This document shows positions 8,292 to 32,821 of a stretch of DNA of 32,821 bases, piece by piece. The stretch is from a virus. Numbering within the stretch: the first letter of the stretch is position 1; each line of letters begins with the position of its first letter. Under the pieces are notes generated by a model. The model saw only the letters and a program-made list of their open reading frames with translations. It had not been told where the DNA came from and made no database searches. The position numbers were made by a program, and so were the translations under genes. The stretch lies in the IMG/VR virus record IMGVR_UViG_3300042197_004933, positions 1 through 32,821 of that record. The stretch is one strand, 5' to 3'.

Positions 8292-8293
8292 AC

Positions 8294-9141: not shown

Positions 9142-9165
9142 CACCTGTGCAAACTGTACCTCACG

Positions 9166-9174: not shown

Positions 9175-9185
9175 GTCAGGCCAAC

Positions 9186-10835: not shown

Positions 10836-10836
10836 G

Positions 10837-10864: not shown

Positions 10865-10890
10865 CCTGAATCAGGAGGTCACATTAACAA

Positions 10891-11094
10891 ATGAGTGATA
10901 ACCCAATTGCATCGAAGTGGAATGAGTTGAAGGCCCTAGTTGAAGCTCTCGAGGCCGATGTTGCCAAGAACGCAAAGGGCGTTGCGGCTGCTGGTGTCCG
11001 TGCCCGCAAGGGTCTTCGACAGCTTCAGACGAGTGCCAAGGAGCTCGTCAAGCTCACGCTAGAATCTGATAAGTCTAAGAAAGAAGACAAGTGA
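10891..11094 (+). CDS. Histone H1-like (Hc1 family) DNA-binding protein
   Basis: A 67-residue protein with the Hc1 pattern: WNELKALVEALEADV (11-25), a Gly/Ala segment GVAAAGVRARKGLRQL (30-45), then AKELVKLTLE and a Lys-rich tail. Bacterial Hc1-like proteins, known from Chlamydia and from many Bacteroidetes, are helical hairpins that bind DNA nonspecifically and compact it. It has its own candidate promoter, the best ribosome site in the window (AGGAGGT) and a strong terminator, so it may be highly expressed. Possible jobs are condensing phage DNA, silencing or restructuring the host nucleoid, or helping packaging. Codons are GC-rich like the neighbouring helicase. The family call rests on pattern, since the protein is short. 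Confidence 0.72.
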   Translation: MSDNPIASKWNELKALVEALEADVAKNAKGVAAAGVRARKGLRQLQTSAKELVKLTLESDKSKKEDK

Positions 11095-11098
11095 AAAA

Positions 11099-11131
11099 GG
11101 TGAAGCTCCGTGAGGAGCTTCACCAGTTTTT
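11099..11131 (+). terminator. Rho-independent terminator
   Basis: A perfect 11-bp stem (GGTGAAGCTCC, 11099-11109, pairing with 11114-11124) with a GTGA loop is followed after AG by five T residues (11127-11131). It begins 4 bases after the Hc1-like stop and lies just before the next gene's ribosome site. It is the clearest terminator in the window. Confidence 0.92.
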
Positions 11132-11140
11132 GAGGTCAAC

Positions 11141-11428
11141 ATGAACATGAGAGCAAGATCAGTTGTATTAAGAGAAATAGCAAGACTAAATCTTGATCCA
11201 AAAGAAGCTTATGTGTCTGGAAAGAATGGATCTCTAGTTCCTAAGAAAGTATCTAAGAGTGAAGTTAAAGACGAAGCTAAGGGCAAGAAAAAAGAAAAGT
11301 CTGAAGATGTAGAAGCTCAATCAGAGTCGGACGCTAATGAACAATCTCCGCCTGAAGAGGTGGAGCCCATTGAGCAAAAGAAGCAGAAAGCTCCACCTCC
11401 CAAGAAGAAGAAGACTGCTACTGAATGA
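11141..11428 (+). CDS. Lysine-rich low-complexity hypothetical protein
   Basis: A 95-residue, highly charged protein. The first 30 residues look foldable (MNMRARSVVLREIARLNLDP). The remainder alternates Lys-rich and Glu-rich low-complexity stretches and ends with PPPKKKK, so it is probably disordered. A GAGGT site (11132-11136) precedes two nearby ATGs (11141 and 11147); either could be used. Its codons are AT-rich, unlike the GC-rich gene just before the terminator. Its last 11 bases overlap the convergent sigma-like gene. A nucleic-acid-binding or scaffold-like role is possible but unsupported. Confidence 0.6.
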   Translation: MNMRARSVVLREIARLNLDPKEAYVSGKNGSLVPKKVSKSEVKDEAKGKKKEKSEDVEAQSESDANEQSPPEEVEPIEQKKQKAPPPKKKKTATE

Positions 11429-17407: not shown

Positions 17408-20400
17408 ATGTCAAAATCTTTTAGACAAGTAAGCGGAACATCCTTGAGTTCTCTGACACCACAGACTCAGCTGAATTCAAGTCCGGTAACACCTGCAATT
17501 CCTACGGTAACACAGCAACCTGTGGCAACAATTTCAGAAGCTTTGTCAGGCGTGCAAGGAATATCATCAGCAAATTTCAATCAAAATGCCCTAACACCAG
17601 TTGGAAATTCTTTCTCCAGAATACCCAATCCTTTTTACACACCTACAGCACCTGCATCTTTGGTTTCTTCGATAATAACGTCACCAAATTTGTCAGTCAA
17701 TGTACCTGCAATTACAGCCGACTTGTACACGCAGCTGACTGGACAAGAACAGCAGTTTTCTAATTCGACAAACTTGGAATCAGGTCAGACAAACACAGCA
17801 AGTCAAAGACTATTTACAAATCTAACAGGTTTGTCTGACAACAAGCCTTCGCTAGTTTTTACATCAGAGTTTATTCCTCTGTATGAAGACAGCTCAAAAA
17901 AGAACACTACGGGAAATTCTCTAAGTCTCAAAGAAACTGCCAAGATTATTACAGCAAAAACGGCAATTAGTTTGCTTTCTCAAAGTTCTGGAATAAACGA
18001 CGTCATAATACAGAACAAGCAGCAGATACTTCAGTTTGTCTCTACTGAGAATAATTTTACTGATAGACTCATGAGTGAGATTGGCAACGTTTACGATGCT
18101 ATGAGTCTAAAGAGCTACATCACGCCTCCGAACTTCTTTCCGAATCAGCGCCTCAGGTTTGAAAAGATACTTCTTGACTCAGGCTACAGCCAAGAAAACA
18201 TATCAAAATACACAGAAACAAAGCTCTGGAAGCAAGTTTTGATTGAAGTAAAGAAGTCAGTTTCTACTCATACTAACTTCCTTATAGACGAGTCGTACGC
18301 AAGGAGAGACGTAGAGAATGATGATAGCAGTATCTATCTTTCGGACATTGAGAGACCGCCGTCTTCACTCTTAAAACTTTGGTTGAATCCGCTGCATGTT
18401 GTCGTTCCAAGCAGTCTTGAGATAGTAGATACAAGAAAAATAGAGACGAACAGACTAGCAATAAGAAACTTAGAAAAAGGCCTCTACATAAATCTCCCGT
18501 TCGCAAACTCCCCAACCAGCGGTAGAGTCTCTACAGTGAATTCTCAGTCGGGAGGACTTGGACTTAGCAGATTTGCGCTTGAAGAGATTGAATTGATAAA
18601 CTCTTCTGACGTTTTGGATCAATATGAGTCGACTGGAAGAGACATTAATGTCTCTGCAAACGCAGTCTTAAAGGAAGCAATTTATTCCTCTTATCTGTTA
18701 GATCAAAGCAACATTTCAAAGCTTTCTGAGTACGGTTACCAGCCTTCTGTCTCGGGAGATAACTTTGCCGTTTGGGATCATTTGATCGGTAGATTCTCTA
18801 AAACAATTTTTGAGTTCCCTACGAATCCTATTGGTCAAGGCAAAGCCTTGTCGTCTCTATCGAATGCAATTCAAGCTTCAGATAATCAGGTCTACAATGT
18901 TTTAACTTTTGAGAAAAACTTTGCTACTAACGCAACACCTGGTTCTTACTATTACGTTGACAGCACTGTTTCTTCAAAAGACGGAACGACCGTAGACACA
19001 TCTAGACTTAATAGTCTGACTAGACTTCTTGAAGTTTCTCAAGAGACTCTAAAGACTGTTTATGAACTTTCAGGATATGAAAGTACATTCTTTGGAGACC
19101 ATAGAGCTTTTAGACCAAAAAATGTTTCTGAAGAACTTGACTTTTTTTCAATAGTCTACAAGCTTTCTCAAGTAACAGATCTCTATAAAAAAGTTCTCGA
19201 CGTGCAAAGTAATTTCACAGAGACTTTTTTAATCAATTACGATAAGATGACTCCTTCTGGTCCATATTCACAAGTTCAGTCAGATGACTACGTTAACGTT
19301 AGATTGGCATCTCTCATATGTAAGTGCACTGTTCAACCCATAGACAGCACCGTTGCAATATCGGCAAACTTAAAGTCTTATCTCTTCTTGTTCTTAATGA
19401 GCAAGATTGTGATCGAGAACACTCCAAGCAATGATCCATTGATTAGCACAATCAACACGCAGAGCACACTCAGCACCCTAAAAGAAAAAATAGTCAATAG
19501 CCTAACCAGGACCAATCAAATAATAACAGAAAATAGATGGAGGGAGACCATCAACAGGGGTCTTGGATATTCTTTGGATCAGACAACATTTGTGGATCCT
19601 GATTTGGAAAGCATTTCATTTACTGGATTTTCTGTCGGAGGAGCTCCGATTGATCAGACTCTCATTGATCTTCAAAGAGCAAGACAAGAAATAAAATCCA
19701 TGTCGGATACAGGCAAGGCAAACTACAATGAGGCAGTAAAGAAGAGACTCTTTGGCGGAATAGACACACAGAAAGGTCTGTGGAAGGTCATCTATGACTT
19801 AATGACGTCCGTTTACAACAATTCGATTATCTTCTCTCAAGAAAAGACAGGTTATACCGGTCTAGACAAAACAGCCTTCATGTATGGATATTTTGACATG
19901 CTCATGAGAATAGTTGCGTCTCAGACTCCTGAGAATTTTTTAGGATCGTACACTTACACTAACACTGTTATTCTAAGAACAACTGTTGGGAGTGGTACTA
20001 GAAACGTAAGAACGGTAGAAAGCAATCTCGCTTATGTAGAAAGAGGTTTGCTTGTGCAAGAAGCAACTCCTGTCCAAGTTATCAATTACTTTAACAGGGA
20101 GCATTTTGATAGAAATGAAGATGCTTATCTCGTCTCCAAGAGACTCAAGCAGTCAGTTGCAAATCATCGGTCGGAGTCGACAAACATCAAAAATCAATTA
20201 GACATTTTTAGGTCTTATATGAAAGATTTGTCTGCAAGTCTGGTGAAATTCAAGACATTTGTGGAACAAAGTTTGACACAGCAGATACAGAAGCTCTCTG
20301 CAATCTACTCTCAAGACAACGCCCTAGATGCAAACAAAAAGAGAGACCTTCTCAACATCTCGCTCACACCAGATCAGGTCAAGCTTCAAAGATACATAAT

Positions 20401-21652
20401 GTCTGAAATTTGTGACAGAATCACGGGTAGATCAGACTTTGACACTCCCACAGATCCTCAACAGATAGTGGATGTGACGAGGGCACTTGAAGACAGACTT
20501 AGAAAGATACCCTCCTTCTCGGACTTCCCAGAAAATTTTTCTAACTTTCTCCCTGTAAATGAGTTTGATCTGTTCTCATACTCATTACTCTCTTCTTTTT
20601 TCAAGTCTAATCAGTTCTTGAGGATAAAAGGAAACAATAAGAAGGTGATGTCTGTCGGAATCCCGCCACAGATGTTTAGATTCTTGTATTCTTCGAATGA
20701 CCCTACACTGTCTTCTTCTCCCCTTAAAAGAATTGTAAAGATATACATTTGGAAGATAGACAGGCTTCACCCCGAGATAGTCTACAAGCCTGTAGTTAGA
20801 CTCTTTGAACTTGACAGATATCCCACTAGAGTTCTCAACAATTGGGATCAAAATGTTCTTATGAATGATGATTTTAACTTGCTCTCCATGCCATCGAAGT
20901 ACGTCACTTCTTACGGCGGAGTCGTCTTAAGCAACAACTATTTGCAAGCTTTTCCAATAGGCGTTTACGGTAACTCTTTGACTGAAGAAGAAAAACGTCA
21001 GATCTATGCTAATCATGCCGTAAGTTTTCTCTCAGAAGAGTATATCAGATGGTTCACAGACAGTAGATTCGATGAGACAAGATACGACAACTACACGCAG
21101 CTTGACAACAGAAGCATTTCATCGGAGCAGCTTGTCGCATCCATTCCTTACATTTCTGCTCAAGCCCAGGCTTCTCCTGCAGCTTCAGTCGCAGCCAGCA
21201 TAATCGATCCTACAAGCGGACAAGCTTTAAACCTTCCTGTAACAAATTCTCCATCACCGGCAAGTGCCACGCTTAGAGACAGCGTAAGAGAAAGACTAAG
21301 CAGACTTGATCCCAATTCAATAATACAGATCGATCTCACAGAAACACTGAAGTCTTTCTTTTCAAGTGAAACTTTCTTGATCAGACCGTTAAACTTCTAC
21401 AGAAAAATTTCATATCCAAAGAAGTTCGACAGAGTCTTCAATATGATAATAGACCCAGATGACTTTTACGTAGACGAAACAGTTACGAAGACATCGGACA
21501 TTCAAGCGCTTAAGAACATAGGAGTACTTTCTGGAGGTCCTGCTGGTGGCGTCAATACCAACCTGCCCTATAAACACAGAGATACACTTCCGCAAGACAT
21601 ATCGTTCGACGAATACTTTGTGACAGTAGCTCCTTATGACTACAACCTCTGA
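17408..21652 (+). CDS. Giant virion protein (1414 residues), unassigned
   Basis: The largest protein in the window and not recognised. The N-terminal ~100 residues are low-complexity, rich in Ser, Thr, Pro, Gln and Asn. The middle is mostly helical, and residues about 910-1040 (encoded near 20130-20520) look coiled-coil-like (RLKQSVANHRSE, SLVKFKTFVEQSLTQQIQKL). A second Ala/Ser/Pro-rich linker lies near 1245-1290, followed by a C-terminal folded part containing IDPDDFYVDE. An AAGGT ribosome site precedes the ATG. The neighbours are virion genes with fibronectin III modules, so this is probably a baseplate, tail or internal head component. No peptidase, lysozyme or polymerase motif was found. 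Confidence 0.68.
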   Translation: MSKSFRQVSGTSLSSLTPQTQLNSSPVTPAIPTVTQQPVATISEALSGVQGISSANFNQNALTPVGNSFSRIPNPFYTPTAPASLVSSIITSPNLSVNVPAITADLYTQLTGQEQQFSNSTNLESGQTNTASQRLFTNLTGLSDNKPSLVFTSEFIPLYEDSSKKNTTGNSLSLKETAKIITAKTAISLLSQSSGINDVIIQNKQQILQFVSTENNFTDRLMSEIGNVYDAMSLKSYITPPNFFPNQRLRFEKILLDSGYSQENISKYTETKLWKQVLIEVKKSVSTHTNFLIDESYARRDVENDDSSIYLSDIERPPSSLLKLWLNPLHVVVPSSLEIVDTRKIETNRLAIRNLEKGLYINLPFANSPTSGRVSTVNSQSGGLGLSRFALEEIELINSSDVLDQYESTGRDINVSANAVLKEAIYSSYLLDQSNISKLSEYGYQPSVSGDNFAVWDHLIGRFSKTIFEFPTNPIGQGKALSSLSNAIQASDNQVYNVLTFEKNFATNATPGSYYYVDSTVSSKDGTTVDTSRLNSLTRLLEVSQETLKTVYELSGYESTFFGDHRAFRPKNVSEELDFFSIVYKLSQVTDLYKKVLDVQSNFTETFLINYDKMTPSGPYSQVQSDDYVNVRLASLICKCTVQPIDSTVAISANLKSYLFLFLMSKIVIENTPSNDPLISTINTQSTLSTLKEKIVNSLTRTNQIITENRWRETINRGLGYSLDQTTFVDPDLESISFTGFSVGGAPIDQTLIDLQRARQEIKSMSDTGKANYNEAVKKRLFGGIDTQKGLWKVIYDLMTSVYNNSIIFSQEKTGYTGLDKTAFMYGYFDMLMRIVASQTPENFLGSYTYTNTVILRTTVGSGTRNVRTVESNLAYVERGLLVQEATPVQVINYFNREHFDRNEDAYLVSKRLKQSVANHRSESTNIKNQLDIFRSYMKDLSASLVKFKTFVEQSLTQQIQKLSAIYSQDNALDANKKRDLLNISLTPDQVKLQRYIMSEICDRITGRSDFDTPTDPQQIVDVTRALEDRLRKIPSFSDFPENFSNFLPVNEFDLFSYSLLSSFFKSNQFLRIKGNNKKVMSVGIPPQMFRFLYSSNDPTLSSSPLKRIVKIYIWKIDRLHPEIVYKPVVRLFELDRYPTRVLNNWDQNVLMNDDFNLLSMPSKYVTSYGGVVLSNNYLQAFPIGVYGNSLTEEEKRQIYANHAVSFLSEEYIRWFTDSRFDETRYDNYTQLDNRSISSEQLVASIPYISAQAQASPAASVAASIIDPTSGQALNLPVTNSPSPASATLRDSVRERLSRLDPNSIIQIDLTETLKSFFSSETFLIRPLNFYRKISYPKKFDRVFNMIIDPDDFYVDETVTKTSDIQALKNIGVLSGGPAGGVNTNLPYKHRDTLPQDISFDEYFVTVAPYDYNL

Positions 21653-21663
21653 AGGAAAGAAAA

Positions 21664-23703
21664 ATGCCCATAATAAACCCAGCATTATCTAGTCTAGCAA
21701 CAGGTGGATCGTCAGATGGAAACAATGCTTCGTCTTCCTCGACAGTTTTTGCTCCTACCGCTTCTCCTCCGAGGTTTTCTGCGAGCAAGATGTCGTCTGT
21801 GTCAAACTCTCTCGATGAAGTCAATGTACCTGAAGTCTCTGAACAAAAAGCATCTTTTGTCTACAACTTTTACACAAGAGACGAAAGAGTAACTTTGCCG
21901 ACAACAAAGTCGTCTAGAGGAACGAGTCTTCCGATGGACAAGATACCAAGATACGTTTCTCTATCTTGGAAATCTCCAAAAATTTCTGACTATCAAGTCA
22001 CTTTACAGAATTACATCAGTCAAGTCCCGACATCAATAAGTGCCTCCGCCAATAAGATAGTGTCGGAAGACAACTATTTTAATCCTGGTTACTTGACACA
22101 CACGTTCTCAAATGTCGATCAGATCGAACAAGGGTCCACAGACCTTGAGAACTTTAACAGGATGTGCAGATATGAGTCTGAAGGATTGTTTAACATGGCA
22201 AAGTTTCAGATCAGACAGATCTCTCTTCAAGGAACTAATAATTCTTCGACTTACGGTGATTTCTTAAATGAGCTGTATAGTCAATACACCAACTTGATAA
22301 ACTTTCCTAAATCTTCACTTGGGCTGAGAGTAATTGATGATAGGAACAGAGAGGTAGTTGACAAAGATGATCTTATAAGCACTGTGGCTAATTCTCTTAA
22401 ATTGAACATGAAGATCAACAAGGCTGTAATACCTGACATTTTCAACAGCTCAAGAGAAAAAGGAGTACCAAGTAACCTAAGCGCACTCAAGACATTCTAT
22501 TCAGAGAGTGTCCAAGGAAACTTCACAAACAACAGAAACAGTGTCCTGTACCCTGTCTCTTCTGGTGCACCAATAAAGTCATACCAGAGTCAACCTGTCA
22601 AGCTGATAGGTTACATAGTTGACAGATATAGGGTCACTACATCTGGTTTTAGAAAAGAAGAAACATTCTACATAGAAGACATATCAAAAACTAATCTCGA
22701 TGACCCAGGTGTACTTTACGGCTACGCATACGTTTACACAGTTAGAGTCGTCGCAAGCATACAAATGCTCGCTTACAATAGTGACAAGACCAAAGTAAAT
22801 TCCTCTATCATATACGTTAGTTCTCGTCCCGTCTCAGTACCAGTGGAGTGCTTCGAATACGCGCCTCCGCCGCCACCGACGAATCTAAGATTTACTTACG
22901 ACTATAAGAAAAAGAACGTAGTCGTTATGTGGGACTTGCCCATCAACAGTCAGGCTGACATAAAACAGATACAGGTTATGAGAAGAAAGACTATAAAAGA
23001 GCCTTTTGAGTTAATAGCACAGTACCACTTTGACAGAACTGAGGTAGGATCAAACGGCCTAGAGTCTTACAAGACTTACGAGAGAGTCGACGGAAATAAT
23101 TTAAAGAACTTGCGGCTGGAAGACAGGTATCTCGTCATACAACAACCAGAAGGCGTGGACCCAGAAACTCCTGCAACACATCACGTCGACAAAGATTTCG
23201 TTGTAGACACAGAGTTTTATGAGTCTTCGAAGTACATCTATTCTGTTTGTTCGATAGACGCACATGGAATGATTTCTAACTACTCATCACAACATGAAGT
23301 GACTTTTGATCCGTACAAGAATAAGTTGGTGACTAAACTGATCTGCGAGTCAGGAAGCCCTCGTCAGTATCCTAACTTTTATTTGAAAGCCGATGCTTTT
23401 AAGGACGTGATTAGAGTTCAAGGAAATAATGCAAGAAAAATGACTGTGTATTTCTCTCCTGAGTTGCTTCGAATAAAAGACGACAGAAATGCAGAGTCTC
23501 TCGTTGTTTCTACAAAGAATAGCACAAACAGAGACCCTTATTACCTTCTACAGATGATAAACTTAGACAACCAAAAATTGCAACTTCTCAAGATAAACAT
23601 TACAGACAATGATGACAATTTAAGTCTCATGAATAGGTCTGGTGTGACCGGGATGTCGATGATCAACAGCACAATTGCAAATACGTCAAGATTCTTTAGG
23701 TAA
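21664..23703 (+). CDS. Virion structural protein with fibronectin III domain
   Basis: A 679-residue protein. A Ser-rich N-terminus leads to a mixed domain, then PPPPPTNLRF (about 400-409) begins a clear fibronectin III module: VVVMWDLP, IKQIQVMRRK and, after an insertion, YIYSVCSIDAHGMISNYS. The Pro run followed by a Leu-Arg strand and the Trp-containing B strand are classic. The C-terminal 140 residues are beta-rich. GAAGGAAAG is the ribosome site, 11 bases after the previous stop. Such proteins decorate tails or baseplates and may help binding to cell-surface polysaccharide. The gene ends at a 114-base gap, the largest inside the structural block. Confidence 0.74.
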   Translation: MPIINPALSSLATGGSSDGNNASSSSTVFAPTASPPRFSASKMSSVSNSLDEVNVPEVSEQKASFVYNFYTRDERVTLPTTKSSRGTSLPMDKIPRYVSLSWKSPKISDYQVTLQNYISQVPTSISASANKIVSEDNYFNPGYLTHTFSNVDQIEQGSTDLENFNRMCRYESEGLFNMAKFQIRQISLQGTNNSSTYGDFLNELYSQYTNLINFPKSSLGLRVIDDRNREVVDKDDLISTVANSLKLNMKINKAVIPDIFNSSREKGVPSNLSALKTFYSESVQGNFTNNRNSVLYPVSSGAPIKSYQSQPVKLIGYIVDRYRVTTSGFRKEETFYIEDISKTNLDDPGVLYGYAYVYTVRVVASIQMLAYNSDKTKVNSSIIYVSSRPVSVPVECFEYAPPPPPTNLRFTYDYKKKNVVVMWDLPINSQADIKQIQVMRRKTIKEPFELIAQYHFDRTEVGSNGLESYKTYERVDGNNLKNLRLEDRYLVIQQPEGVDPETPATHHVDKDFVVDTEFYESSKYIYSVCSIDAHGMISNYSSQHEVTFDPYKNKLVTKLICESGSPRQYPNFYLKADAFKDVIRVQGNNARKMTVYFSPELLRIKDDRNAESLVVSTKNSTNRDPYYLLQMINLDNQKLQLLKINITDNDDNLSLMNRSGVTGMSMINSTIANTSRFFR

Positions 23704-23817
23704 GTTTTTGGTGATCATTTAAACGCTTCGCGTTTGCTGTATGATTCTGTGGAATGGAAAACAGTCAAAAACAGAACGTAGTCATAATTACAACGTTAGA
23801 GAATCGATAGAGGAACT
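23704..23817 (+). promoter_or_regulatory. Intergenic region with hairpin and -10-like box
   Basis: The gap contains a perfect 6-bp inverted repeat AAACGC-TTC-GCGTTT (23721-23735) followed 4 bases later by TATGAT (23740-23745), a good -10 hexamer without a recognisable -35. The hairpin is not followed by a T-run, so it is not a standard terminator. It could be an operator or an attenuator-type structure at an internal promoter. An AGGA ribosome site (23811-23814) serves the ATG at 23818. Confidence 0.4.
23754..23810 (+). CDS. Possible 18-residue leader ORF
   Basis: An ATG at 23754 opens 18 codons (MENSQKQNVVIITTLENR) ending in TAG just before the ribosome site of the 23818 gene. It lies downstream of the TATGAT box and would be the first ORF on that transcript. 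There is only a weak GTGG upstream, so translation is uncertain. It may be chance. Confidence 0.2.
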   Translation: MENSQKQNVVIITTLENR

Positions 23818-24546
23818 ATGGGATATCTTGACCACTCGACCAACAACATAATTTTAGACGCAGTTTTGACTGACTATGGTCGACAGAAGTTAGCTTCTGC
23901 TAACAGTGCTTTTAACGTCACAAGCTATTCGCTTGCTGATGATGAAGTCGATTATGGTCTCGTGAAGAGATATGGTAGGACAGTTGGCAAAGAAAAGATA
24001 GAGAAGAACACACCCATCTTTGAAGCCCTAACAAATCCAGAAATTGCACTAAAGTACCGACTCATTGGGAGGGAAAACTCAGGAGCAATTTCGTCTGTCT
24101 ATCTTCCGCAACTTAAGCTTTCTACGGGAACTAGCATAGATTTCACTGATAATTCTGCAAAAAGATTTAGTGTAGACTTGCTTTGGAAGGGGCAGGCTTC
24201 TTCATCGTCAATTCCTGTGGAATTCATACAGAAGTCGTACGAGATAAAGATATCGAGTAGATTCTTTAACATCACCGGCGCCTCGAATGGAAGTATTGAT
24301 TCGCCATCAACTGCAGTCAACAGAGTCAATGCAGGCGACCCCAACAGGATGGCCGTCTATACGCTTTCAGGAACAGGGACTTCTACTTCCATTGAACTCA
24401 CTGTGGTTCCTCTAAACATAGACGCAACGACTCTTTCGATCTATGGCAAGCTGCAAGGAACGAAGCGAAAGATAACAAGCTACGTAAAGATAACCGGCCT
24501 GACGCACGGTTGTTCAGTCGACATCCCCATCACATACACAGCATAA
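23818..24546 (+). CDS. Virion structural protein, conserved N-terminal module
   Basis: A 242-residue protein. The N-terminal ~80 residues (GYLDHSTNNIILDAVLTDYG, then a YSLADDEVDYGL element and GRTVGKEKIEKNTP) resemble the start of the 504-residue protein at 13198 and, from memory, a widespread virion family of T4-like marine phages. The C-terminal 130 residues are beta-rich, with repeated Ser/Thr, consistent with an Ig-like sandwich (IELTVVPLNIDATTLSIYG). The ATG follows an AGGA ribosome site. It is followed 20 bases later by the 437-residue gene. Neck, sheath-terminating or baseplate roles are all possible. Confidence 0.75.
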   Translation: MGYLDHSTNNIILDAVLTDYGRQKLASANSAFNVTSYSLADDEVDYGLVKRYGRTVGKEKIEKNTPIFEALTNPEIALKYRLIGRENSGAISSVYLPQLKLSTGTSIDFTDNSAKRFSVDLLWKGQASSSSIPVEFIQKSYEIKISSRFFNITGASNGSIDSPSTAVNRVNAGDPNRMAVYTLSGTGTSTSIELTVVPLNIDATTLSIYGKLQGTKRKITSYVKITGLTHGCSVDIPITYTA

Positions 24547-24566
24547 CTTAACGGAAAAGAACTAAG

Positions 24567-25880
24567 ATGGCCATATCAAAAGACGTAAGACCGGACGACA
24601 AGGTAGTTACTAGGTCTTTCCTCAATCAGTTAATTGATGTTCTCTCAGAAGACATAAGCTCTTCTATATCGAGAAGAAAATATCAGGTCTTCGTGACAGG
24701 CGGCGTGGGCCCAGGCGTGACGTCATCACTCTTTCAGACGGTGTATGACCAAGACTTCACACTTCAGACTGCAAACCCCGTATTTGACATAACTTTTGGA
24801 CTCGCTGCACCCGATTCTATCAACAGCAGCGGTAATCAAAACACAGCAGGATCAGCTGCCAAGATAAAAATAGCTCAAGCAGCTAACGGCGGAAATTTCA
24901 TATATCCTAGCAGTTCAATGATGATGAGAGAGAAGACTGACGTGTATGGTCAATTTGCTCAGTCGCTTCTTGGAAACAGAAAGTCAATGTTCACAAGAGT
25001 GAACAATACAAGCAATCCTTCTTCCACGACAGTCGACATCGATGCGGCTCTCTTCATAGCCTTCAAGAGACTCTTTTCTAGAGACGAGATAAAGCGCGAG
25101 ACTTTCGCTCTAAGATTTTTCACTTCAGCGTCTTTCGTTTCTACTAATACCAATGCTACATTCGGTAATCCAAACATAGACTGTCCGCCTGCAGATGAAT
25201 CTTATGGCGTAACCAACCTTTATGTCAACTCAATATCGGGATCTTCCATATTCACTGACGTAGGATCTTCAGGCCAGAGGCTGACAGAAGTTGGAGGACA
25301 GTTTGGTTATCTCGTCAATGCTTCAAATCCAACTAGAACTGTTGGATCGATCTTTTACAATCACGGAATAGTTGTACTAGACGCAGCCGAGATAACTTCT
25401 GGATCTCAGTTCATGTCTGGGACCATATCTGCCATGCATCCACTCGGGACAACGATACTGGGAGGCGCCATGACTGAAACGTCTGGCACAGCAAAATTAA
25501 TACCAGACCTAGTCTGCTCAGGAAGCATGGACGATATCTTGGATCACTTCTGCTATGCGAGGTTTGGAACAGGCGCATTGACTGCAATGACCTTCCAGAA
25601 CGTAACAAACATTAACTCTTCACTCATATTCGTGAGAGCTCTACCTGGAGATTTCAATTACTCCTCAAACCCCACTTATGTTCAAGCTACAGGAGACACA
25701 GGAAGACTCACGATATACGACGACACTTTACCAGATGAAACTCAAGAGCCGTTTACATACATCACGACAATTGGTCTTTACGACTCAAGCGGTGGTCTCT
25801 TGGCAGTTGCAAAACTCAGCAGACCTGTTGAGAAGAACCCGGGAAGAGACTTGACTTTTAGAGTTAGACTTGACTTCTGA
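24567..25880 (+). CDS. Virion protein with C-terminal domain shared with the 25902 gene
   Basis: A 437-residue protein, rich in Ser, Thr, Gly and Asn and probably beta-structured apart from a helical start (VTRSFLNQLIDVLSEDISSS). Near residues 255-266 VGSIFYNHGIVVLD matches VGNIFYDEGVVVIK in the next protein. The C-terminal 40 residues (FTYITTIGLYDSSGGLLAVA, then KLSRPVEK and FRVRLDF) match the next protein's end. This paired layout suggests two related outer components of one structure, such as tail-fibre or whisker proteins. A GGAAAAG ribosome site precedes the ATG. All codons are AT-rich, including the shared C-terminus. Confidence 0.72.
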   Translation: MAISKDVRPDDKVVTRSFLNQLIDVLSEDISSSISRRKYQVFVTGGVGPGVTSSLFQTVYDQDFTLQTANPVFDITFGLAAPDSINSSGNQNTAGSAAKIKIAQAANGGNFIYPSSSMMMREKTDVYGQFAQSLLGNRKSMFTRVNNTSNPSSTTVDIDAALFIAFKRLFSRDEIKRETFALRFFTSASFVSTNTNATFGNPNIDCPPADESYGVTNLYVNSISGSSIFTDVGSSGQRLTEVGGQFGYLVNASNPTRTVGSIFYNHGIVVLDAAEITSGSQFMSGTISAMHPLGTTILGGAMTETSGTAKLIPDLVCSGSMDDILDHFCYARFGTGALTAMTFQNVTNINSSLIFVRALPGDFNYSSNPTYVQATGDTGRLTIYDDTLPDETQEPFTYITTIGLYDSSGGLLAVAKLSRPVEKNPGRDLTFRVRLDF

Positions 25881-25901
25881 TGGTCCTTTATATGGAGTTT
25901 C

Positions 25902-28421
25902 ATGTCAGTCATTCGAGTTACTAAAAATGATATTGAGTCATTCACAGTTGTAACAACACCGAGCAGAAGCTATATTTCTAGTTCTGTCTTGGGAGTCACT
26001 GGCTCCATAAAAGTCTTTCCTCGTCTTTCTCCTACCGAGAAAGATCAAGAAAAATCTTTCTTGTTCAACGACACAAATTCCTTGGCAACTGTCGAGACCA
26101 ATTTCGACAGTCAGTGGAACTTGATAAACGAGAGCTCAAGGACAAAAAGGCAGTATTCAGAGAGCATTGTTGGTCCTCTTGAAAAGTATTTGAGCATAGT
26201 TTCGGCAACACCAACCAGAAAAACTCAGACTCTTGACATAGAGAGATTTACTCCTACCACGAAAGTAACCAAGTATACTCTGATAAAGAATAACATCAAG
26301 CAAAATTTGATGCGTTATTACAGTGTTGAGTATCCTTCAGCTAATTGGTCGTACACTAATTACAATTCTTTGAATTTTTTCACTGCTTTCAATGGATCAA
26401 CTCAACTTGTTCCTACGTCTTCAGTTTTGCTCTATCCGAACTCATACGACAGTGAGCTACCTGTTCATGAAGGTCATGTGTCTGGTTCTTATTGTTTGTC
26501 AGGCGCATTTAGCTTTGACTTCTACATAAATCCAAGGTACAAAGAAGACGGAATAGATGCGGGGCACTTTAAAGCAGGAACAGTGTTTCACCTCTCTTCT
26601 AGCTATGCGGTCTCTCTTGTCACAGGATCTAAGAAAGATGCCAACGGTTATCCCGAAGGCTTTAGGTTACAATTGCAACTCAGCCACAGTGCTGATTATC
26701 CACCATCAAAAGTTTTACCGAGCAGCTATCCTCACGACTTAGTTTTTCTCTCAGAGGATAACTCTCTCTTCTTCAACAAGTGGCATCACGTAGTGATTAG
26801 GTGGGGAACTAATCTGGTCAATGAGGGAACAGGATCTTTTGTCATCGACAGTGTGGAAAAAGGAACTTTTGTAGTGCCCTCAGGTACTGTAATGCCAAAA
26901 ATATTTGCTTCGGCAACGTCACTTAATCCCGACGTTCTTTGCATTGGCAACTTCTATGAAGGGAAAAACACAGGCACATCAGCACAGTCACTTTTCTTTG
27001 GAGTGAGACCCGCTCGTAGAGATGGACTCGATCAACTAACCAGTGATAATGCTCTCGACGCTCCCGTTTCATCTTCTTTTAGACACCCTCTCAAGGCTGA
27101 AGTCCACGATCTTGTCATAAGACGAAGCTACATGTCTGATGAGGAAATAGCACTCACGGGCTCCATAGGCGTAGGAACTGACGCCTTGAACAAGAAGAAT
27201 ATTGCATTCTGCGTACCTCCTTTCTTTGTTGAAAAAACTCCAATAAGAAGACTGGTAGGAGATTATGGCGGAATATTGCAGACACCTTTCTTTGAAATAG
27301 ATGGAAGCACTGATGATCCCTTTAACGTAGCCATGGCATTTGGAGTGAATGGCCACTACATCAACTTAGAGAATTTCACAAAAGACTTTGCAACAGGCAG
27401 ATTCCCCAGACTTCTCCACTTGTCTGCTTCTGCAATAGACTACACTACACAGGCAGAAGAAGCAAACGTATTTCTATACAATGACGGGCGTGTCGCAAAG
27501 AGAAACTTAACCATACTTCCATGCGATGATGGCAATTTCACTCCTAATTACTCGTTAATAGAGAACGAAAGCTTCTACAATAGATTCTCTGATTCATACG
27601 GAAATTACGACTACAGTTTGATCAACTTGGACAACTTGATCACGGCTTCTTCTCTTATTTCTGGTGGAATTGGAACTAATGGGCCGAGTGATTATGTCAC
27701 TCAGCTTTACGGCCCCAATGATGAACAGCCCGGTCTTGAACCAGGATCAGCATATAAAAGTTACATAGCAGCAGTTACTGCTTCAATATCTTCTATATCG
27801 TCAGACGATGAATTTAACAGAGGAATTCAGCGCGGAGCTCCTGCCACGATTTATCAGAGAACTCTCGATCCTTCTTCCAACCAAGTGACTTTCTTCAATA
27901 TAAGCAATCTCTACTACGGCAGGAGAATACTTCCGGGTTCTTTTGTTCTAAAAGATTCTTCCATGTCAGGATCACATGGTAAAGTGAAGATAACTCTGAG
28001 AGACGACTACGCAGGTAACCTTTATAGAGCCGATTCTGATTCTCCTCACGCAACTCAAAATTCTGTCGGTAATATTTTCTACGATGAGGGCGTAGTGGTC
28101 ATAAAGAGCCCACACCTCTACTTCTTTGGAAAGAATCAATACGAATTGTCTTTTAAGGGAGTTCAAAACATATACACGCAAAAGTACGAGATAATAGCTG
28201 GAGCTGGCCTTCTAAATTCTTCATCCAACGTGTCATACATTGAGAACGAGAGCAGTCTTAAAGCTTCTAACAATCCTAAAGATACTGACAAGTTCGTTTA
28301 CATCTCCGGCCTCAACTTCCACGACGAGAACATGAACGTGGTGGCGAAGGCCCGGTTGGCGCAACCCATCATCAAGAGGGAAGGCGACAAGATCCTCTTC
28401 AAGGTCACCTTCGATTACTGA
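25902..28421 (+). CDS. Large virion protein with LamG/concanavalin-like domain, probable adhesin
   Basis: An 839-residue protein. Residues about 160-355 form a LamG/concanavalin A-like jelly roll: AFSFDFYINPRY (202-213), FRLQLQLS (254-261) and the signature NKWHHVVIRWG (292-302). Such domains bind glycans in fibres and spikes. Later, VGNIFYDEGVVVIK and the last 40 residues (FVYISGLNFHDENMNVVAKA, then FKVTFDY) are shared with the 437-residue neighbour. Base composition switches sharply at about 28300, close to where the shared C-terminal motif begins: 21/60 G+C in 28141-28200 against 36/60 in 28321-28380. The TGA overlaps the next ATG (TGATG). A TGGAG site precedes the start. Confidence 0.76.
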   Translation: MSVIRVTKNDIESFTVVTTPSRSYISSSVLGVTGSIKVFPRLSPTEKDQEKSFLFNDTNSLATVETNFDSQWNLINESSRTKRQYSESIVGPLEKYLSIVSATPTRKTQTLDIERFTPTTKVTKYTLIKNNIKQNLMRYYSVEYPSANWSYTNYNSLNFFTAFNGSTQLVPTSSVLLYPNSYDSELPVHEGHVSGSYCLSGAFSFDFYINPRYKEDGIDAGHFKAGTVFHLSSSYAVSLVTGSKKDANGYPEGFRLQLQLSHSADYPPSKVLPSSYPHDLVFLSEDNSLFFNKWHHVVIRWGTNLVNEGTGSFVIDSVEKGTFVVPSGTVMPKIFASATSLNPDVLCIGNFYEGKNTGTSAQSLFFGVRPARRDGLDQLTSDNALDAPVSSSFRHPLKAEVHDLVIRRSYMSDEEIALTGSIGVGTDALNKKNIAFCVPPFFVEKTPIRRLVGDYGGILQTPFFEIDGSTDDPFNVAMAFGVNGHYINLENFTKDFATGRFPRLLHLSASAIDYTTQAEEANVFLYNDGRVAKRNLTILPCDDGNFTPNYSLIENESFYNRFSDSYGNYDYSLINLDNLITASSLISGGIGTNGPSDYVTQLYGPNDEQPGLEPGSAYKSYIAAVTASISSISSDDEFNRGIQRGAPATIYQRTLDPSSNQVTFFNISNLYYGRRILPGSFVLKDSSMSGSHGKVKITLRDDYAGNLYRADSDSPHATQNSVGNIFYDEGVVVIKSPHLYFFGKNQYELSFKGVQNIYTQKYEIIAGAGLLNSSSNVSYIENESSLKASNNPKDTDKFVYISGLNFHDENMNVVAKARLAQPIIKREGDKILFKVTFDY

Positions 28422-28825
28422 TGCCGGTCGCCAAGAAGAAGCGAAAGAAGAAGAGGAGGGGCCATTACATCCGTGGCACCTACACCTCTCCGATCGCCGG
28501 TGAGTGCAAGTTCCGTTCTGGGTGGGAGTATAAATTGATGATCCACCTCGATGCGAGTCCCGATGTGGAGTTTTGGTCCTACGAGAAGACAGTGATCGAA
28601 TACGTGTCCAACGTGAGGACAAAGAAGATTCGTAAGTATTATCCAGACTTCCTCGTGAGGTACAGAGATGGGCGTACCGAACTCATCGAGGTGAAGCCTA
28701 AGAGAAAACTCGAGCAGGCTGTGATCAAGAAGAAGATGGCCGCCGCCCTGCTGTGGTGCGCTGAACACGGTATGACTTACAGAATAGTCACAGAAATACA
28801 ATTGAAGGAATTAGGTCTGTTATAA
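28421..28825 (+). CDS. TnsA-like nuclease, probable T4 gp4-type head completion nuclease
   Basis: A 134-residue PD-(D/E)xK enzyme. After a Lys/Arg-rich start come Glu36 in FRSGWEYKLM, WSYEKTVIEYVS (52-63), Asp76 in RKYYPDFLV, and Glu90-Lys92 in LIEVKPK, followed by LEQAVIKKKMAAAL (97-110). The spacing is that of the TnsA N-terminal catalytic domain. T4 head completion nuclease gp4 belongs to the same fold group and trims or processes packaged DNA at head-tail joining. Since the gene directly follows virion genes and no TnsB/C partner exists here, the phage role is favoured over transposition. Codons are GC-rich except for the last ~50 bases. Confidence 0.82.
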   Translation: MPVAKKKRKKKRRGHYIRGTYTSPIAGECKFRSGWEYKLMIHLDASPDVEFWSYEKTVIEYVSNVRTKKIRKYYPDFLVRYRDGRTELIEVKPKRKLEQAVIKKKMAAALLWCAEHGMTYRIVTEIQLKELGLL

Positions 28826-28865
28826 GAAAGTTTTACTGGATCATCTCTGGGTTAACAATCCATCC

Positions 28866-29462
28866 ATGGCATATCATGGTTACATACCTGGAATGAAAGG
28901 GTACCTAAGCGAGATAACACATCCTAGAGTGTTGGAGATAGGACTAGACAGAGGAGTTACTACCATTCCGGTAATAGCTTTCATGACACGCTTTCATAAG
29001 ACTTTTGATTTCTTAGGAATAGACGTGCTTCTTCAAGAATCATTAATCATCACTCTCAATAATTTGGATCTGAAGCAAGGACATAATGTCAGCTTAAAAC
29101 AAAAGAACAGTCTGGAAGAGATTCCGGAAATTGTTAAAAGAGGAGAAAAATTTGATCTCGTTTTGATCGATGGTGACCACAACTATTACACTGTCGCAGA
29201 AGAACTGCGTCATCTCAACGACATTACTCATGACAAGAGTCTGGTTATCATAGACGACTATGAGGGAAGGTGGTCAGAAAAAGATCTTTGGTATTCCGAC
29301 AGAGAAGAATACAAGAAAGTTGAGATCGCAACAAAGTCTATCACTACTGACAAGCACGGAGTAAAACCAGCAGTCGACGAATTCTTGGATTCTAATCCGC
29401 AGTGGTTTAAGTCGGCACCGATACATGGTGAACCTGTCGTCTTGTCGAAGAGAAAATTGTAA
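28866..29462 (+). CDS. Class I SAM-dependent methyltransferase-like protein
   Basis: A 198-residue Rossmann methyltransferase. Motif I is VLEIGLDRG (22-30), the post-strand-2 acidic residue is Asp53 in GIDVLL, and LVLIDGDHNYY (98-108) and VIIDDYEG (127-134) recall the Methyltransf_24 group and the operon protein at 1230-1904. The C-terminal 60 residues are charged and may form a lid. The substrate is unknown: glycan, small metabolite and protein are all possible. The AT-rich gene is wedged between GC-rich nuclease and resolvase genes, so it looks like an insertion relative to them. The start lacks a good ribosome site. Its TAA overlaps the next ATG (TAATG). Confidence 0.78.
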   Translation: MAYHGYIPGMKGYLSEITHPRVLEIGLDRGVTTIPVIAFMTRFHKTFDFLGIDVLLQESLIITLNNLDLKQGHNVSLKQKNSLEEIPEIVKRGEKFDLVLIDGDHNYYTVAEELRHLNDITHDKSLVIIDDYEGRWSEKDLWYSDREEYKKVEIATKSITTDKHGVKPAVDEFLDSNPQWFKSAPIHGEPVVLSKRKL

Positions 29463-30022
29463 TGTCAAATCTCGTTCTAGGCCTCGATGTGTCCACTTCC
29501 ATCACAGGAGTGTGTGTGGTGGATCCTGATTTGGAACCTGTTAACGGTGCCAACGTCGCTTACCTCGATCGAATCGAGTTCAAGAAGTGTGTGACTCTAT
29601 GGGACAAGGCCGATCGCGTCAAGTCCGAATTGCTCCTCCTCAAGACGAGGTTTCCATCTGTGACTGCCTTCGCCCTCGAGGAGCCACTTCTTGGATTCTC
29701 TAAGGGCATGAGTTCTGCGGCAACCATCACCACGTTGATGCGATTCAACGGCATCGTCTCGTACATCGGACGAGAAGTGTTCGGCCTCGAACCCACATAC
29801 ATCTCGGCGGCATCGGCTCGAAAGCTGTGTGGAGTGAAGCTGCAGAAGACCTCGGTGGCCGGCATGCCACACAAGGAGCAAGTCTTCAAACACATGTGCG
29901 AACACGATCTTTCACACGTTCAGTGGCCTCTCACTCCGAAGTCGGGTGCAATCGTGGGATGGTCGAGGGATGCAACGGATGCCTACGTGATCGCCCGGGC
30001 TGCAGGCCTCATGAACAAGTGA
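29462..30022 (+). CDS. RuvC-like Holliday junction resolvase
   Basis: A 186-residue RNase H-fold protein with the RuvC acidic set: Asp9 in LGLDVSTSITG, Glu73/Glu74 in FALEEPL, and Asp170/Asp173 in SRDATDAYVIA. ISAASARKLCGVKL (114-127) resembles the DNA-contacting segment of RuvC. Such enzymes cut four-way junctions formed by recombination-dependent replication, clearing branches before packaging. In T4 this job is done by the unrelated endonuclease VII, so a RuvC-type enzyme would be a substitute. It starts by a one-base overlap with the methyltransferase stop and is followed 24 bases later by the primase. Codons are strongly GC-rich. Confidence 0.88.
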   Translation: MSNLVLGLDVSTSITGVCVVDPDLEPVNGANVAYLDRIEFKKCVTLWDKADRVKSELLLLKTRFPSVTAFALEEPLLGFSKGMSSAATITTLMRFNGIVSYIGREVFGLEPTYISAASARKLCGVKLQKTSVAGMPHKEQVFKHMCEHDLSHVQWPLTPKSGAIVGWSRDATDAYVIARAAGLMNK

Positions 30023-30029
30023 ACAGGGG

Positions 30030-30035
30030 TATGAT
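30030..30035 (+). promoter_or_regulatory. -10-like box before the primase
   Basis: TATGAT lies in the 24-base gap upstream of the primase GTG (30047), with 11 bases between, the same spacing as the helicase promoter. There is no credible -35 and no TG extension, so this is tentative. Confidence 0.25.
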
Positions 30036-30046
30036 ACTGTTTTACT

Positions 30047-31036
30047 GTGGCCGTCTTCAGCATCAGTGATAAACTTCTGTTCATCGAGTCCGTGTTCGGC
30101 AAGGGTCACCTCGCCGGCAACGGACGGAACTTCGATGTTCGGTGTCCCATCTGTGCACCCTCCGATGTCACGAAGAAGAAGCTTGCCATCAAGACGGATG
30201 ATGACCGGTGTCACTGTTGGGTGTGTGGATTCAAGGCGAGGAACCTCGTTCCCCTCATCCGAAAGTACGGTACGCCTGGGCAACTGGCGAAGTACAAGGA
30301 GGTCCTCGGGATCGCCGATGGTGGCACAGGCGAACTGGTCACTGGCGAGAAGGTGGAGGAACAACGCCTCGAACTTCCCGGGGACTTCTGCCTCCTGCCC
30401 CTGGCAAATCAGAACGATCCTGACGTGAAGGCGATGTGGAGGTACCTCTTCGGCCGCGGCTTGACAGAACGTGATGCGTGGTACTTCAAGTTTGGCATCT
30501 CCAACGAACCTCGGTGGAAGCGGCGGGTGATCATGCCTTCCTTCAACTTCAAAGGTGAACTTAACTACTTCACGGCCCGTGCGATCGATAAGGACAGAAA
30601 GCCCAAGTACGACAACCCAGAGGTGGACAAGAACCCCATCATCTTCAATGAGATCAACATCGACTGGACGAAGCGGTTGGCACTGGTGGAGGGTCCATTC
30701 GATCTCGTCAAGTGTCCGGACAACACCACAGCACTCCTCGGATCCGACTTGGACGAGAGACACGAACTCTTCAATAGAATCCTCCTCAACAACACGCCAG
30801 TGGCCCTCGCCCTCGACGGAGACATGTGGGACAGGAAGACTCCGAAGATCGCGAAGAAACTCCAGGAGTATGATGTTGACGTGCAGATAGTAGATGTCCG
30901 TCCGTGGGGCGACCCTGGTTCTATGTCCCGCGCGGAGTTTGAAATCGCCTTGAAAGAAGCACGCTACCTCGACTGGAATGACAACTTCCTCATCAAGCTC
31001 AATCGCGTCATTAGCACGTCATCTCTGGGAATGTAG
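30047..31036 (+). CDS. DnaG-type DNA primase
   Basis: A 329-residue primase. The N-terminal zinc finger is CPIC (Cys33, Cys36) plus CHCWVCG (Cys57, Cys60). A DnaG-like core follows, with RRVIMPSFNFKGELNYFTAR (159-178) and KPKYDNPEVDKNP (185-197). The TOPRIM domain has Glu215 in LVEGPFDL and Asp257/Asp259 in LALDGDMWD. At 329 residues it is close to T4 gp61 (342) and lacks the C-terminal helicase-binding domain of bacterial DnaG. It would prime lagging-strand synthesis. The start is GTG at 30047; an in-frame stop at 30032 excludes longer forms. No ribosome site is obvious. GC-rich codons match the RuvC-like gene. Confidence 0.92.
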   Translation: MAVFSISDKLLFIESVFGKGHLAGNGRNFDVRCPICAPSDVTKKKLAIKTDDDRCHCWVCGFKARNLVPLIRKYGTPGQLAKYKEVLGIADGGTGELVTGEKVEEQRLELPGDFCLLPLANQNDPDVKAMWRYLFGRGLTERDAWYFKFGISNEPRWKRRVIMPSFNFKGELNYFTARAIDKDRKPKYDNPEVDKNPIIFNEINIDWTKRLALVEGPFDLVKCPDNTTALLGSDLDERHELFNRILLNNTPVALALDGDMWDRKTPKIAKKLQEYDVDVQIVDVRPWGDPGSMSRAEFEIALKEARYLDWNDNFLIKLNRVISTSSLGM

Positions 31037-31051
31037 CGAATACTTAGAGAC

Positions 31052-32068
31052 ATGCGTTCAAATATCCGGCCTGTCATTTCAGAGGCCAAGCTCAGGAAGA
31101 TCATCCGTGAGGAGCTCACGAGGCAGTACATCGTGCAAGAGAGTCTCACTGATGACGCCAAACAGGGCATCATCAAGTTGACCAAGGCTGTGAAAGACAA
31201 GATCAAGGGAAAGGCCAAGGAGCTTGCAGCAAAGATCTCAGAGGCAATGGCAACTTTCAAAAAGATGCCCAATGAACTTAAGTCTCTAGTCGATGCAATC
31301 AAGAAAGGCATGAAAGAGTCAGGTGAGTCGATAAAACTTGATGACACATTGAAGGATGCTAAACAGTTCGGAAGCACCGATTTTAAGAAAGTCGCCGAAG
31401 AAGATTTTGAGAATCTCAAGAGCAACGCAGCGAATCTCTCGAATGCCAAGACAGAAAGTTTACTTAAACTGAACTCTTTGCTTCTCGTCGAAGGACTCGA
31501 TTCTGAGAAGTCGCTATTGAACGAGAGCATCATTGGTATAGTTGGCATGGGTTTGGCAGGAATGGGCTTTCTCCCGATGCTTTTCAAAGCCTTGTCCAAG
31601 GTGGCCACGTGGTTGAAGCTACCAAAAATTGCATCAGCAATGGAAAAAGCCGAACACTTCTTTCATAAGATCGAGGAAGACGTCATCGACTTTATCGTAC
31701 CCGATAAGTTCTCATATAAGGTCTATCTGGCCCTTCAAGACACCCCCTTCAGCTCAGGTCTCAAGTTGAGTGCCGGAGACGACATCGTCTCCTTTGAGGA
31801 TTACACCTCTGATAAGGCTATGGCGTACGAGAAACCGGGGAAAGAAAATGAGCATCCGAGAAGCGTCAGGTCAAAAGTCGATGGACTCATCTACAAGGGT
31901 TTACTCATCTTCTTCTTGTATGAAGGTATACAGGGAGTCCTGCATTCAGGAGCTTCCATGCTTGGAATCCTGGAGGGAAGTGCCTCGGCTGTCAAGGGAG
32001 TTGAACTTGCAGCTGCAGCCGAAGAGATCGCCGTCGCAGCTCGAGCAGCAGCTAGAGCAGCTGTGTAA
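31052..32068 (+). CDS. Membrane-associated hypothetical protein
   Basis: A 338-residue protein with no recognised enzyme domain. The start ISEAKLRKIIREEL (9-22) is an amphipathic motif that, from memory, recurs at the N-terminus of varied phage proteins. Helical, charged residues 30-150 follow. Two hydrophobic segments, about 160-178 (IIGIVGMGLAGMGFLPMLF) and 279-298, suggest membrane insertion. The C-terminus (318-338) is an Ala-rich helix. Base composition switches within the gene: 33/60 G+C in 31081-31140 falls to 25/60 in 31381-31440. It lies between primase and SbcD-like genes. A virion-internal, ejected or membrane-anchoring role can be imagined but not supported. Confidence 0.65.
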   Translation: MRSNIRPVISEAKLRKIIREELTRQYIVQESLTDDAKQGIIKLTKAVKDKIKGKAKELAAKISEAMATFKKMPNELKSLVDAIKKGMKESGESIKLDDTLKDAKQFGSTDFKKVAEEDFENLKSNAANLSNAKTESLLKLNSLLLVEGLDSEKSLLNESIIGIVGMGLAGMGFLPMLFKALSKVATWLKLPKIASAMEKAEHFFHKIEEDVIDFIVPDKFSYKVYLALQDTPFSSGLKLSAGDDIVSFEDYTSDKAMAYEKPGKENEHPRSVRSKVDGLIYKGLLIFFLYEGIQGVLHSGASMLGILEGSASAVKGVELAAAAEEIAVAARAAARAAV

Positions 32069-32070
32069 CT

Positions 32071-32099
32071 TATACACACTCAGTGTTTTAAGCTACAAT
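32071..32099 (+). promoter_or_regulatory. Sigma70-like promoter candidate for the SbcD-like gene
   Basis: TATACA (32071-32076, 4 of 6 to TTGACA) and TACAAT (32094-32099, 5 of 6 to TATAAT) are 17 bases apart. The expected start point falls within a few bases of the ATG at 32108, implying a very short or absent leader, and no ribosome site is visible. Confidence 0.45.
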
Positions 32100-32107
32100 T
32101 TAGTGAT

Positions 32108-32821
32108 ATGCTTAGAATCGCCCACACGGCGGACATCCACATTCGTGCACTGTCCCGCCACGACGAGTACAGACAGGTCTTCAAGGCGTTCATCGAGGAC
32201 TGTAGGTCCCAGGCGGTGGACCACATCTTCATTGGTGGCGACATCTTCCATACAAAGGTGACCGGAATCTCACCGGAGTACATCGAACTCCTCACCTGGT
32301 GGTTGACCGAGATGGCGAAGGTGGCACCCGTCCACATGGTCCTCGGTAATCATGATGGAAACCTTGTAAATTTGTCTCGACAGGATGCTGTCACACCCAT
32401 TGTGGAAGCGATGGCCAACCCACGTGTCTTCCTCTATAAAAAGTCAGGTGTCTATAACTTCACACCAGGATACAACTGGTGTGTATTCTCGTGCTTCGAT
32501 GAAGAAGGCTGGAAGAACGTCTCTCCTGTTCCTGGCGACGTCAACATCGCGACCTTCCACGGCCCTGTCAGAGGATCTGTGACTGAGACAGGATGGGACA
32601 TCGATGAAGAGAACATCACGGCAGATTACTTCAAAGATTACGACTTCTGCATGCTTGGAGATATTCACAAGCAGCAGTTCCTCGGCTACAGGGACGGTAA
32701 GCCTTGGATAGGCTATCCTGGGACACCGATTCAACAGAATTATGCCGAAGAATTGAACCACGGTTACTATCTCTGGGAGATAAAGAATTCTTCTGATTGG
32801 TCTGTCGTCAACCGTCCACTT
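32108..32821 (+). CDS. SbcD/Mre11-like nuclease (T4 gp47 type), truncated by window edge
   Basis: An open frame of 238 codons running off the end of the window. Metallophosphatase motifs are in order: HTADIHI (6-12), GGDIFH (about 44-49), LGNHDGN (about 79-85), ATFHGP (around 153) and LGDIHK (around 186). These are the metal ligands of the SbcD/Mre11/gp47 family. The partner is normally an SbcC/gp46-type ATPase, expected just downstream. Together they resect DNA ends in recombination-dependent replication and can degrade host DNA. The 5' part is GC-rich and the last ~180 bases AT-richer. Family length is typically 300-400 residues, so roughly a quarter to a third is probably missing. Confidence 0.9.
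   Translation, partial: MLRIAHTADIHIRALSRHDEYRQVFKAFIEDCRSQAVDHIFIGGDIFHTKVTGISPEYIELLTWWLTEMAKVAPVHMVLGNHDGNLVNLSRQDAVTPIVEAMANPRVFLYKKSGVYNFTPGYNWCVFSCFDEEGWKNVSPVPGDVNIATFHGPVRGSVTETGWDIDEENITADYFKDYDFCMLGDIHKQQFLGYRDGKPWIGYPGTPIQQNYAEELNHGYYLWEIKNSSDWSVVNRPL

Follow-up and report, generated by a model that had tools for sequence, protein, structure and literature searches.

Intronless homing with co-conversion of the flanks is established in T-even phages, for SegF and other endonucleases and with marker exclusion, in the accessible part of PMC2988022. The locus described here resembles T-even homing in that free-standing endonuclease genes lie near conserved genes and the flanks are replaced around the site. 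It differs in that the T-even process was shown by crosses, whereas the present one is read from sequences, and in that it leaves a long-lived change of composition within a virion gene, even where no endonuclease remains. Nuclease genes at the boundaries of genetic exchange have also been described already, in the accessible part of PMC10448857; as there, endonuclease genes of different classes at one locus stand beside essential genes, at the edges of exchanged regions. The types in that report are T5orf172 and IPA-HNH and the islands exceed 10 kb, whereas here the type is TnsA-like/NUMOD3, the tracts measure 0.5-1 kb and the edge falls inside a coding gene; its main text, so far as accessible, holds no mention of NUMOD3, composition or a breakpoint (PMC10448857). 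F-CphI is likewise a free-standing phage homing endonuclease on a nuclease fold that has another role too, and it carries an Endo VII motif where the tail-junction type here carries the PF08722 TnsA-like domain (accessible part of PMC6083498). Among open papers judged by title, no description of TnsA-like phage homing endonucleases was found, and open papers likewise gave none of a NUMOD3/Vsr homing type or of endonucleases beside hypervariable tail fibers. Apparently new are a seam that persists inside a gene as a change of composition, the use of a pair of paralogous gene ends, and the presence of a TnsA-like type at the site. A composition switch inside a gene would thereby be linked to a named process, which offers a possible way to find old homing events in genomes that now have no endonuclease. 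The end of a virion protein could also sit in another recombining pool than its body, and this matters for phage phylogenies.

The DNA analysed, called the window, is a stretch of 32,821 nucleotides from a virus. It holds an 839-codon gene (25902-28421) preceded by a 437-codon gene, and the features of the locus are summarized in Table 1. The GC3-rich block that spans the end of the 839 gene is probably a gene-conversion seam at a homing-endonuclease hot spot, where the adhesin gene meets the gene for the head-closure nuclease. The latter gene matched phrog_218 (head closure, E 2.3e-25) and PF08722 (E 3.9e-18), and its product is a predicted head-closure TnsA-like nuclease, labelled gp4-like after T4. 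The PF08722 domain presumably has the PD-(D/E)XK fold, so the TnsA-like type may sit in a listed homing-endonuclease family. Among the genes further right, the RuvC-like and primase-like names were given by eye, without a Pfam match, and the sbcD-like gene matches PF00149. The slot between the gp4-like and RuvC-like genes (28866-29462) has variable cargo. It holds a methyltransferase in the window, while L002 carries a patatin-like gene and L004 two other ORFs; in seven phages of the close group defined below there is only a 40-nt gap.

Table 1. Features of the tail junction and of related sites in the window
Feature	Coordinates	Strand	Remark
Body of 839-aa virion protein, with predicted LamG/pentraxin-like jelly-roll	25902..28292	+	GC3 0.39, to codon 797
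Conserved C-terminal tail, codons 798-839; putative left arm of seam	28293..28418	+	GC3 0.90 over the last 42 codons
GC3-rich block: tail and most of next gene	28287..28759	+	two-state scan
Junction, overlap TGATG of adhesin stop and next start	28419..28423	+	endonuclease genes here in relatives; empty in window
Predicted TnsA-like head-closure (gp4-like) nuclease gene; putative right arm of seam	28421..28825	+	phrog_218, PF08722
Paralogous tail, end of 437-aa gene (24567-25880)	25752..25877	+	no composition switch; endonucleases after it in relatives
Stretch replaced in near-identical phage L001, with GIY-YIG gene inserted	31945..32707	+	putative conversion tract, tapering ends

The codon composition of the 839 gene was analysed along its length. 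The tail holds 38 GC-ending codons of 42, against 17.2 +/- 3.0 expected for the same amino acids under body codon usage, a level reached in 0 of 20000 simulations. A free change-point scan placed the switch 44 codons before the stop, and 0 of 500 permutations were equally strong; these results bear out the sharp switch near the gene end that an earlier note on this DNA had reported. That note had also held that the motif alone is GC-rich, which was wrong. A two-state scan of the codons of all window genes gave a single block that runs through the stop codon and so takes in most of the next gene too, a downstream half that had been missed, as had the homing-endonuclease-like genes described below. 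The neighbour's copy had been described correctly as not GC-rich: the 437 tail has a GC3 of 0.43, equal to that of its own body, and the 437 gene has no change point (LLR 1.2, matched in strength by 437 of 500 permutations).

The switch was then compared across relatives. When viral contigs were searched with the 839 protein, 28 loci were obtained, of which L001 is 100% identical; the close group of 12 consists of the window and L002, L004, L006-L010, L013, L016, L017 and L021. Over the 11 relatives of this group, aligned GC3 was 0.37 for codons 781-797, 0.83 and 0.90 in the next two seven-codon sets, and back to 0.47 at the last seven tail codons; in their gp4-like gene it was about 0.6-0.8 over codons 1-120 and <=0.30 after that (the last 14 codons or so). 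When the 12 genes were scanned separately, the strongest change point lay 36-50 codons before the stop in nine (window 44, L006 42, L008 48, L009 44, L010 42, L013 36, L016 50, L017 42, L021 45). It lay elsewhere, and not at the tail, in L002, L004 and L007, which speaks against a homing seam. Body and tail of one history and one composition, the case named beforehand as contrary to a recombining tail, were found only outside the close group, where a GC rise near the stop was present in 0 of 6 relatives tested; in one outsider, L005, the change found 16 codons ahead of the stop lowers GC.

Selection on codons or on the nucleic acid, by which GC-ending codons would be needed in the tail and at the beginning of the next gene for accurate translation, coupling or an RNA element, is improbable. 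The near-invariance of the tail protein (close-group identity 0.99-1.00 over residues 798-825) and the occurrence of the switch in many phages would suit it, but within any one region GC3 is near-equal for invariant and variable residues, and it remains low in those body stretches that reach about 0.9 identity, so that the effect is regional. The synonymous codons of the tail vary (mean identity 0.60, 66 pairs), and such selection leaves the conflicting trees given below unexplained. Accuracy-driven codon choice was ruled out, as neither the equally conserved body stretches nor the equally conserved 437 tail is GC-rich.

In the close relatives the structural genes upstream are GC3-low while the gp4-like, RuvC-like, primase-like and sbcD-like genes are GC3-high, hence the tail matches the right-hand genes in composition. 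Tail GC3 goes with these genes in most phages and only weakly in L004 (0.55), L007 (0.48) and L013 (0.55). The contrast, present in all genes measured on either side in the close group, would also be expected if GC3-poor structural and GC3-rich replication modules of different ancestry simply met inside the adhesin gene, through ordinary homologous recombination via the conserved tail DNA, with endonucleases as incidental settlers in a tolerant gap. Such a module boundary is unlikely.

The histories of the two parts were compared in the same 18 phages, and the tree of the body conflicts with that of the tail plus gp4-like gene. In AU tests, for groups chosen after the trees were known, the tail and gp4 data rejected all four body clades tested (L009+L021, p 0.005; L016+L017, 5e-41; L006-L009+L021, 2.6e-7; L002+L013, 4e-4), and the body data rejected three of four block clades (L006+L016, 4e-4; L017+L021, 2e-6; window+L002+L004, 3e-5). 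The fourth, window+L004, survived the body data (p 0.19), which counts against a homing seam. The gp4-like sequence of L013 entered the gp4 comparisons, trees and AU tests without its first 40 codons or so. The body and the tail with its nuclease gene differ in history.

The pair L006/L016 gave the sharpest example. Codon identity at shared residues was 0.27-0.42 in the body, 0.84 and 0.81 in the tail halves, 0.61-0.88 in the gp4-like gene and 0.55-0.58 in the next (RuvC-like) gene, for which L006/L007 gave 0.37/0.56 and L016/L017 gave 0.47/0.55. The bodies are at synonymous saturation though the tail/gp4 block is common to both, and nucleotide identity rises from 0.67 to 0.90 on passing from the ten-codon bin that starts at 790 to the one that starts at 800. 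The difference between the gp4-like and RuvC-like genes indicates that the tract ends, which is contrary to a simple module boundary. Compared with codons drawn at random according to regional usage (66 pairs), synonymous identity was in excess by 0.058 for the body, 0.132 for the tail and 0.099 for gp4; the tail value against that of the body points to an exchange that is real and mostly not recent. The same modest excess is in keeping with a module boundary, since most exchange would be old. The nearest relative of the window block is 87% identical and no near-identical donor was found among the relatives, a point against a homing seam.

The role that had been proposed for the tail is that of a constant virion-docking anchor on which unrelated adhesin bodies would be swapped upstream. 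The ends of the 839 and 437 proteins are alike (hhalign probability 98.2, E 3.7e-14), as was also seen in a search of the window's own record (E 5.5e-6). The likeness that had been noticed in the last 40 residues or so is real, but the match spans the last 90 columns, and the shared module is therefore about twice the length first stated. The 839 model has a mean pLDDT of 78 and pTM of 0.76 (the 437 model, mean pLDDT 67), and its tail forms a C-terminal element of three strands, 798-807, 813-826 and 831-838. Foldseek matched the 839 model to 4dqa (E 1.1e-7) and pentraxins, with TM 0.13-0.19 by query length, and to LamG-like phage proteins; the matches were otherwise only of jelly-roll lectin type. 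The model thus contains a predicted jelly-roll of LamG/pentraxin type, which fits a surface-binding protein, and the adhesin identity is plausible; the matches to toxin lectin domains indicate a shared fold at most.

A docking anchor would be in accordance with an end of about 90 residues on two different virion proteins, with its distinct beta element in the model, and with the finding that other phages, among them RM378 and the Flavobacterium immuto phages, have proteins that match part of the 437 protein (22-40% coverage). This explanation is nevertheless very improbable. All 34 aligned 839 relatives have homologous bodies (39-71% identity), so no wholesale replacement is seen; close relatives differ instead in the tail and the next gene. 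What had been called a recombination anchor does mark a seam with a separate history and composition of body and tail, but the piece that moves is the tail with the downstream nuclease gene (L006/L016; L009/L021) and not the body.

Searches for the family elsewhere gave little. The full 839 protein had no match in annotated phages, the 42-residue tail alone had none at E 1, the tail alignment against species genomes gave 114 pattern matches of which 0 were confirmed, and the 437 profile had no match among solved structures at E 0.1. The 437 relatives in three annotated phage regions are hypothetical proteins, which in immuto adjoin tail fiber and tail spike genes.

In several relatives an extra gene lies directly after the 839 tail stop and before the gp4-like gene. 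In unique loci where a tail is succeeded by an ORF, a full-size endonuclease-like gene follows the 839 tail in 8 of 55 (L002, L009, L010, L014, L017, L064, L094, L097; two fragments, L073 and L075) and the 437 tail in 8 of 44 (L010, L014, L073, L075, L083, L086, L087, L097; two fragments, L076 and L085). The loci counted had been gathered via the adhesin or its tail and not via an endonuclease, duplicate and near-duplicate loci and five short-match loci (L032-L036) were left out, and the full-length matches of a search with the endonuclease were all contigs already in the locus set. A C-terminal TnsA-like domain (PF08722) is present in 12 of the 16 full-size genes, usually with NUMOD3 repeats, the rest being GIY-YIG or HNH. 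PF08722 occurs with PF07460 in L002, L009, L010 (437 site), L014 (both sites), L017, L064 and L094; at the 437 site of L075 and L087 NUMOD3 is absent or sub-threshold, and PF08722 was assigned to L086 from its 87.5% identity to L087. GIY-YIG genes are those of L010 (839 site) and L073, and HNH is found in L097. With known nuclease and DNA-binding domains, the tail-junction genes are predicted to be free-standing and homing-endonuclease-like, and PHROGs has endonuclease families of similar architecture (phrog_15427).

The genes are strongly concentrated at the two tail junctions, which argues against incidental settlement at a module boundary. In a Pfam search of 50 whole records, 13 of the 25 NUMOD3 ORFs over the cut-off stood at tail junctions (counted by hand, with tails approximated at 87), and these junctions make up about 3.6% of the 2.91 Mb searched; 6 of the 12 ORFs away from them come from one 340-kb record. 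The same 50 records, when searched for GIY-YIG, gave most matches elsewhere and 2 ORFs at tail junctions. Both searches covered 50 of the 56 unique loci.

A junction endonuclease as a fresh copy of the gp4-like gene was rejected, the nuclease domains grouping apart from the main gp4-like clade in a tree with several weak branches. The 437-site endonucleases of L010 and L014 nest within the 839-site clade (96/88). Between these two phages the 437 tail with its endonuclease is 0.72-0.88 identical, and most of the flanking sequence on either side about 0.55.

Other results on occupancy are less favourable to a homing seam. The window has the seam and no endonuclease at the junction. The switch is as strong in empty phages (L008, L016, L021 and the window) as in occupied ones (L009, L017), so the presence of an endonuclease does not track it; a switch without the gene in the window and others is what a module boundary would give, and a lasting boundary of two gene pools could also be kept up without endonucleases. 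A second seam was sought at the 437 tail, and neither a switch nor a synonymous excess was found there (excess identity 0.045, compared with 0.070 for the body of that gene).

Occupied and empty alleles of one site were found, at the junctions of L009/L021 and others and, for L001 and the window, at the sbcD-like gene. L001 and the window have 0 mismatches over 17902-31944 (14,043 nt), then seven in 31945-32047, and diverge after that. The L001 insert carries a GIY-YIG gene (PF01541) and lies 3.6 kb from the 839-gene seam; beyond it the sbcD-like gene has about 300 nt at 56-78% identity and about 300 nt at 86-96% before identity returns to 100%. Over the first 95 codons of this gene GC3 is 0.39 for L001, against 0.72 for the window. 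L024 and L021, both contigs of another sample, have counterparts of the inserted segment at 97.7% and 91.3% identity respectively, which argues against an assembly accident. A single homing-type event, gain or loss, is the evident origin of this composition switch within a coding gene, judged from the aligned pair; as a natural record of one such event the pair is unusually clean, and its tract ends can be measured. An insertion accompanied by local replacement in this very phage is not expected of a mere meeting of modules. The arms measure roughly 110 and 600 nt for the L001 event and roughly 130 and 340 nt for the window block around the junction.

In a second comparison, of the occupied L009 with the empty L021, body identity is 96-100% until about 1 kb ahead of the adhesin stop; from about -1000 on, it is about 80-90% through the tail, the gp4-like gene and the next gene. 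The left tract of this pair is about 950 nt and not about 126, contrary to what a homing seam bounded by the tail would give. Replacement of a flank that ends in homologous sequence is clear for L001/window, at another site, and for L009/L021; the window's own block has a separate history and a composition edge only.

Endonuclease cutting as the cause of the window block is inferred from these patterns, and the steps would be as follows. In a co-infection, an endonuclease would cut an endonuclease-free relative near the junction, and the donor would serve as the template for repairing the break. The left repair arm would be the tail-coding DNA of about 126 nt, the best conserved stretch on that side, and the right arm the nuclease gene. 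The donor tail and nuclease gene would be copied in, with or without the endonuclease gene, so that the tail-coding DNA would belong to the right-hand recombining pool (GC3 about 0.6-0.7) and not to that of its own gene (about 0.4). A wider and more tentative reading, which we regard as possible but doubtful, is that a homing endonuclease lineage of the same TnsA-like family as the phage head-closure protein uses the coding sequence of the tail on two paralogous virion genes as a homing arm, has moved between both gene ends, and has placed the end of a virion gene in another gene pool and base composition.

Some minor features were also observed. At the junction the TGATG overlap of the window corresponds in L021 to a short leader, TAG GTTTAGCC ATG, and in the occupied L009 the endonuclease gene ends TTTAGCC ATG; the target leader may have been lost in the window. 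The 437-type proteins of L083, L085, L086, L087 and L094 run on for 12-14 residues beyond the tail, and in most of these phages an endonuclease gene or a piece of one follows directly; this extension may be an insertion scar. Elsewhere in the window, a second GC3-rich block (0.69) at 12240-12938 lies inside the gene of a PIN plus PhoH protein (11745-13151), is GC3-poor on both sides and has edges that are not exactly those of the PhoH domain; it is possibly another seam. The region 8199-11149, with Clp protease and helicase genes, is GC3-rich between GC3-poor regions, and positions 1-5833 carry a cluster of glycosyltransferase and methyltransferase genes on the minus strand.
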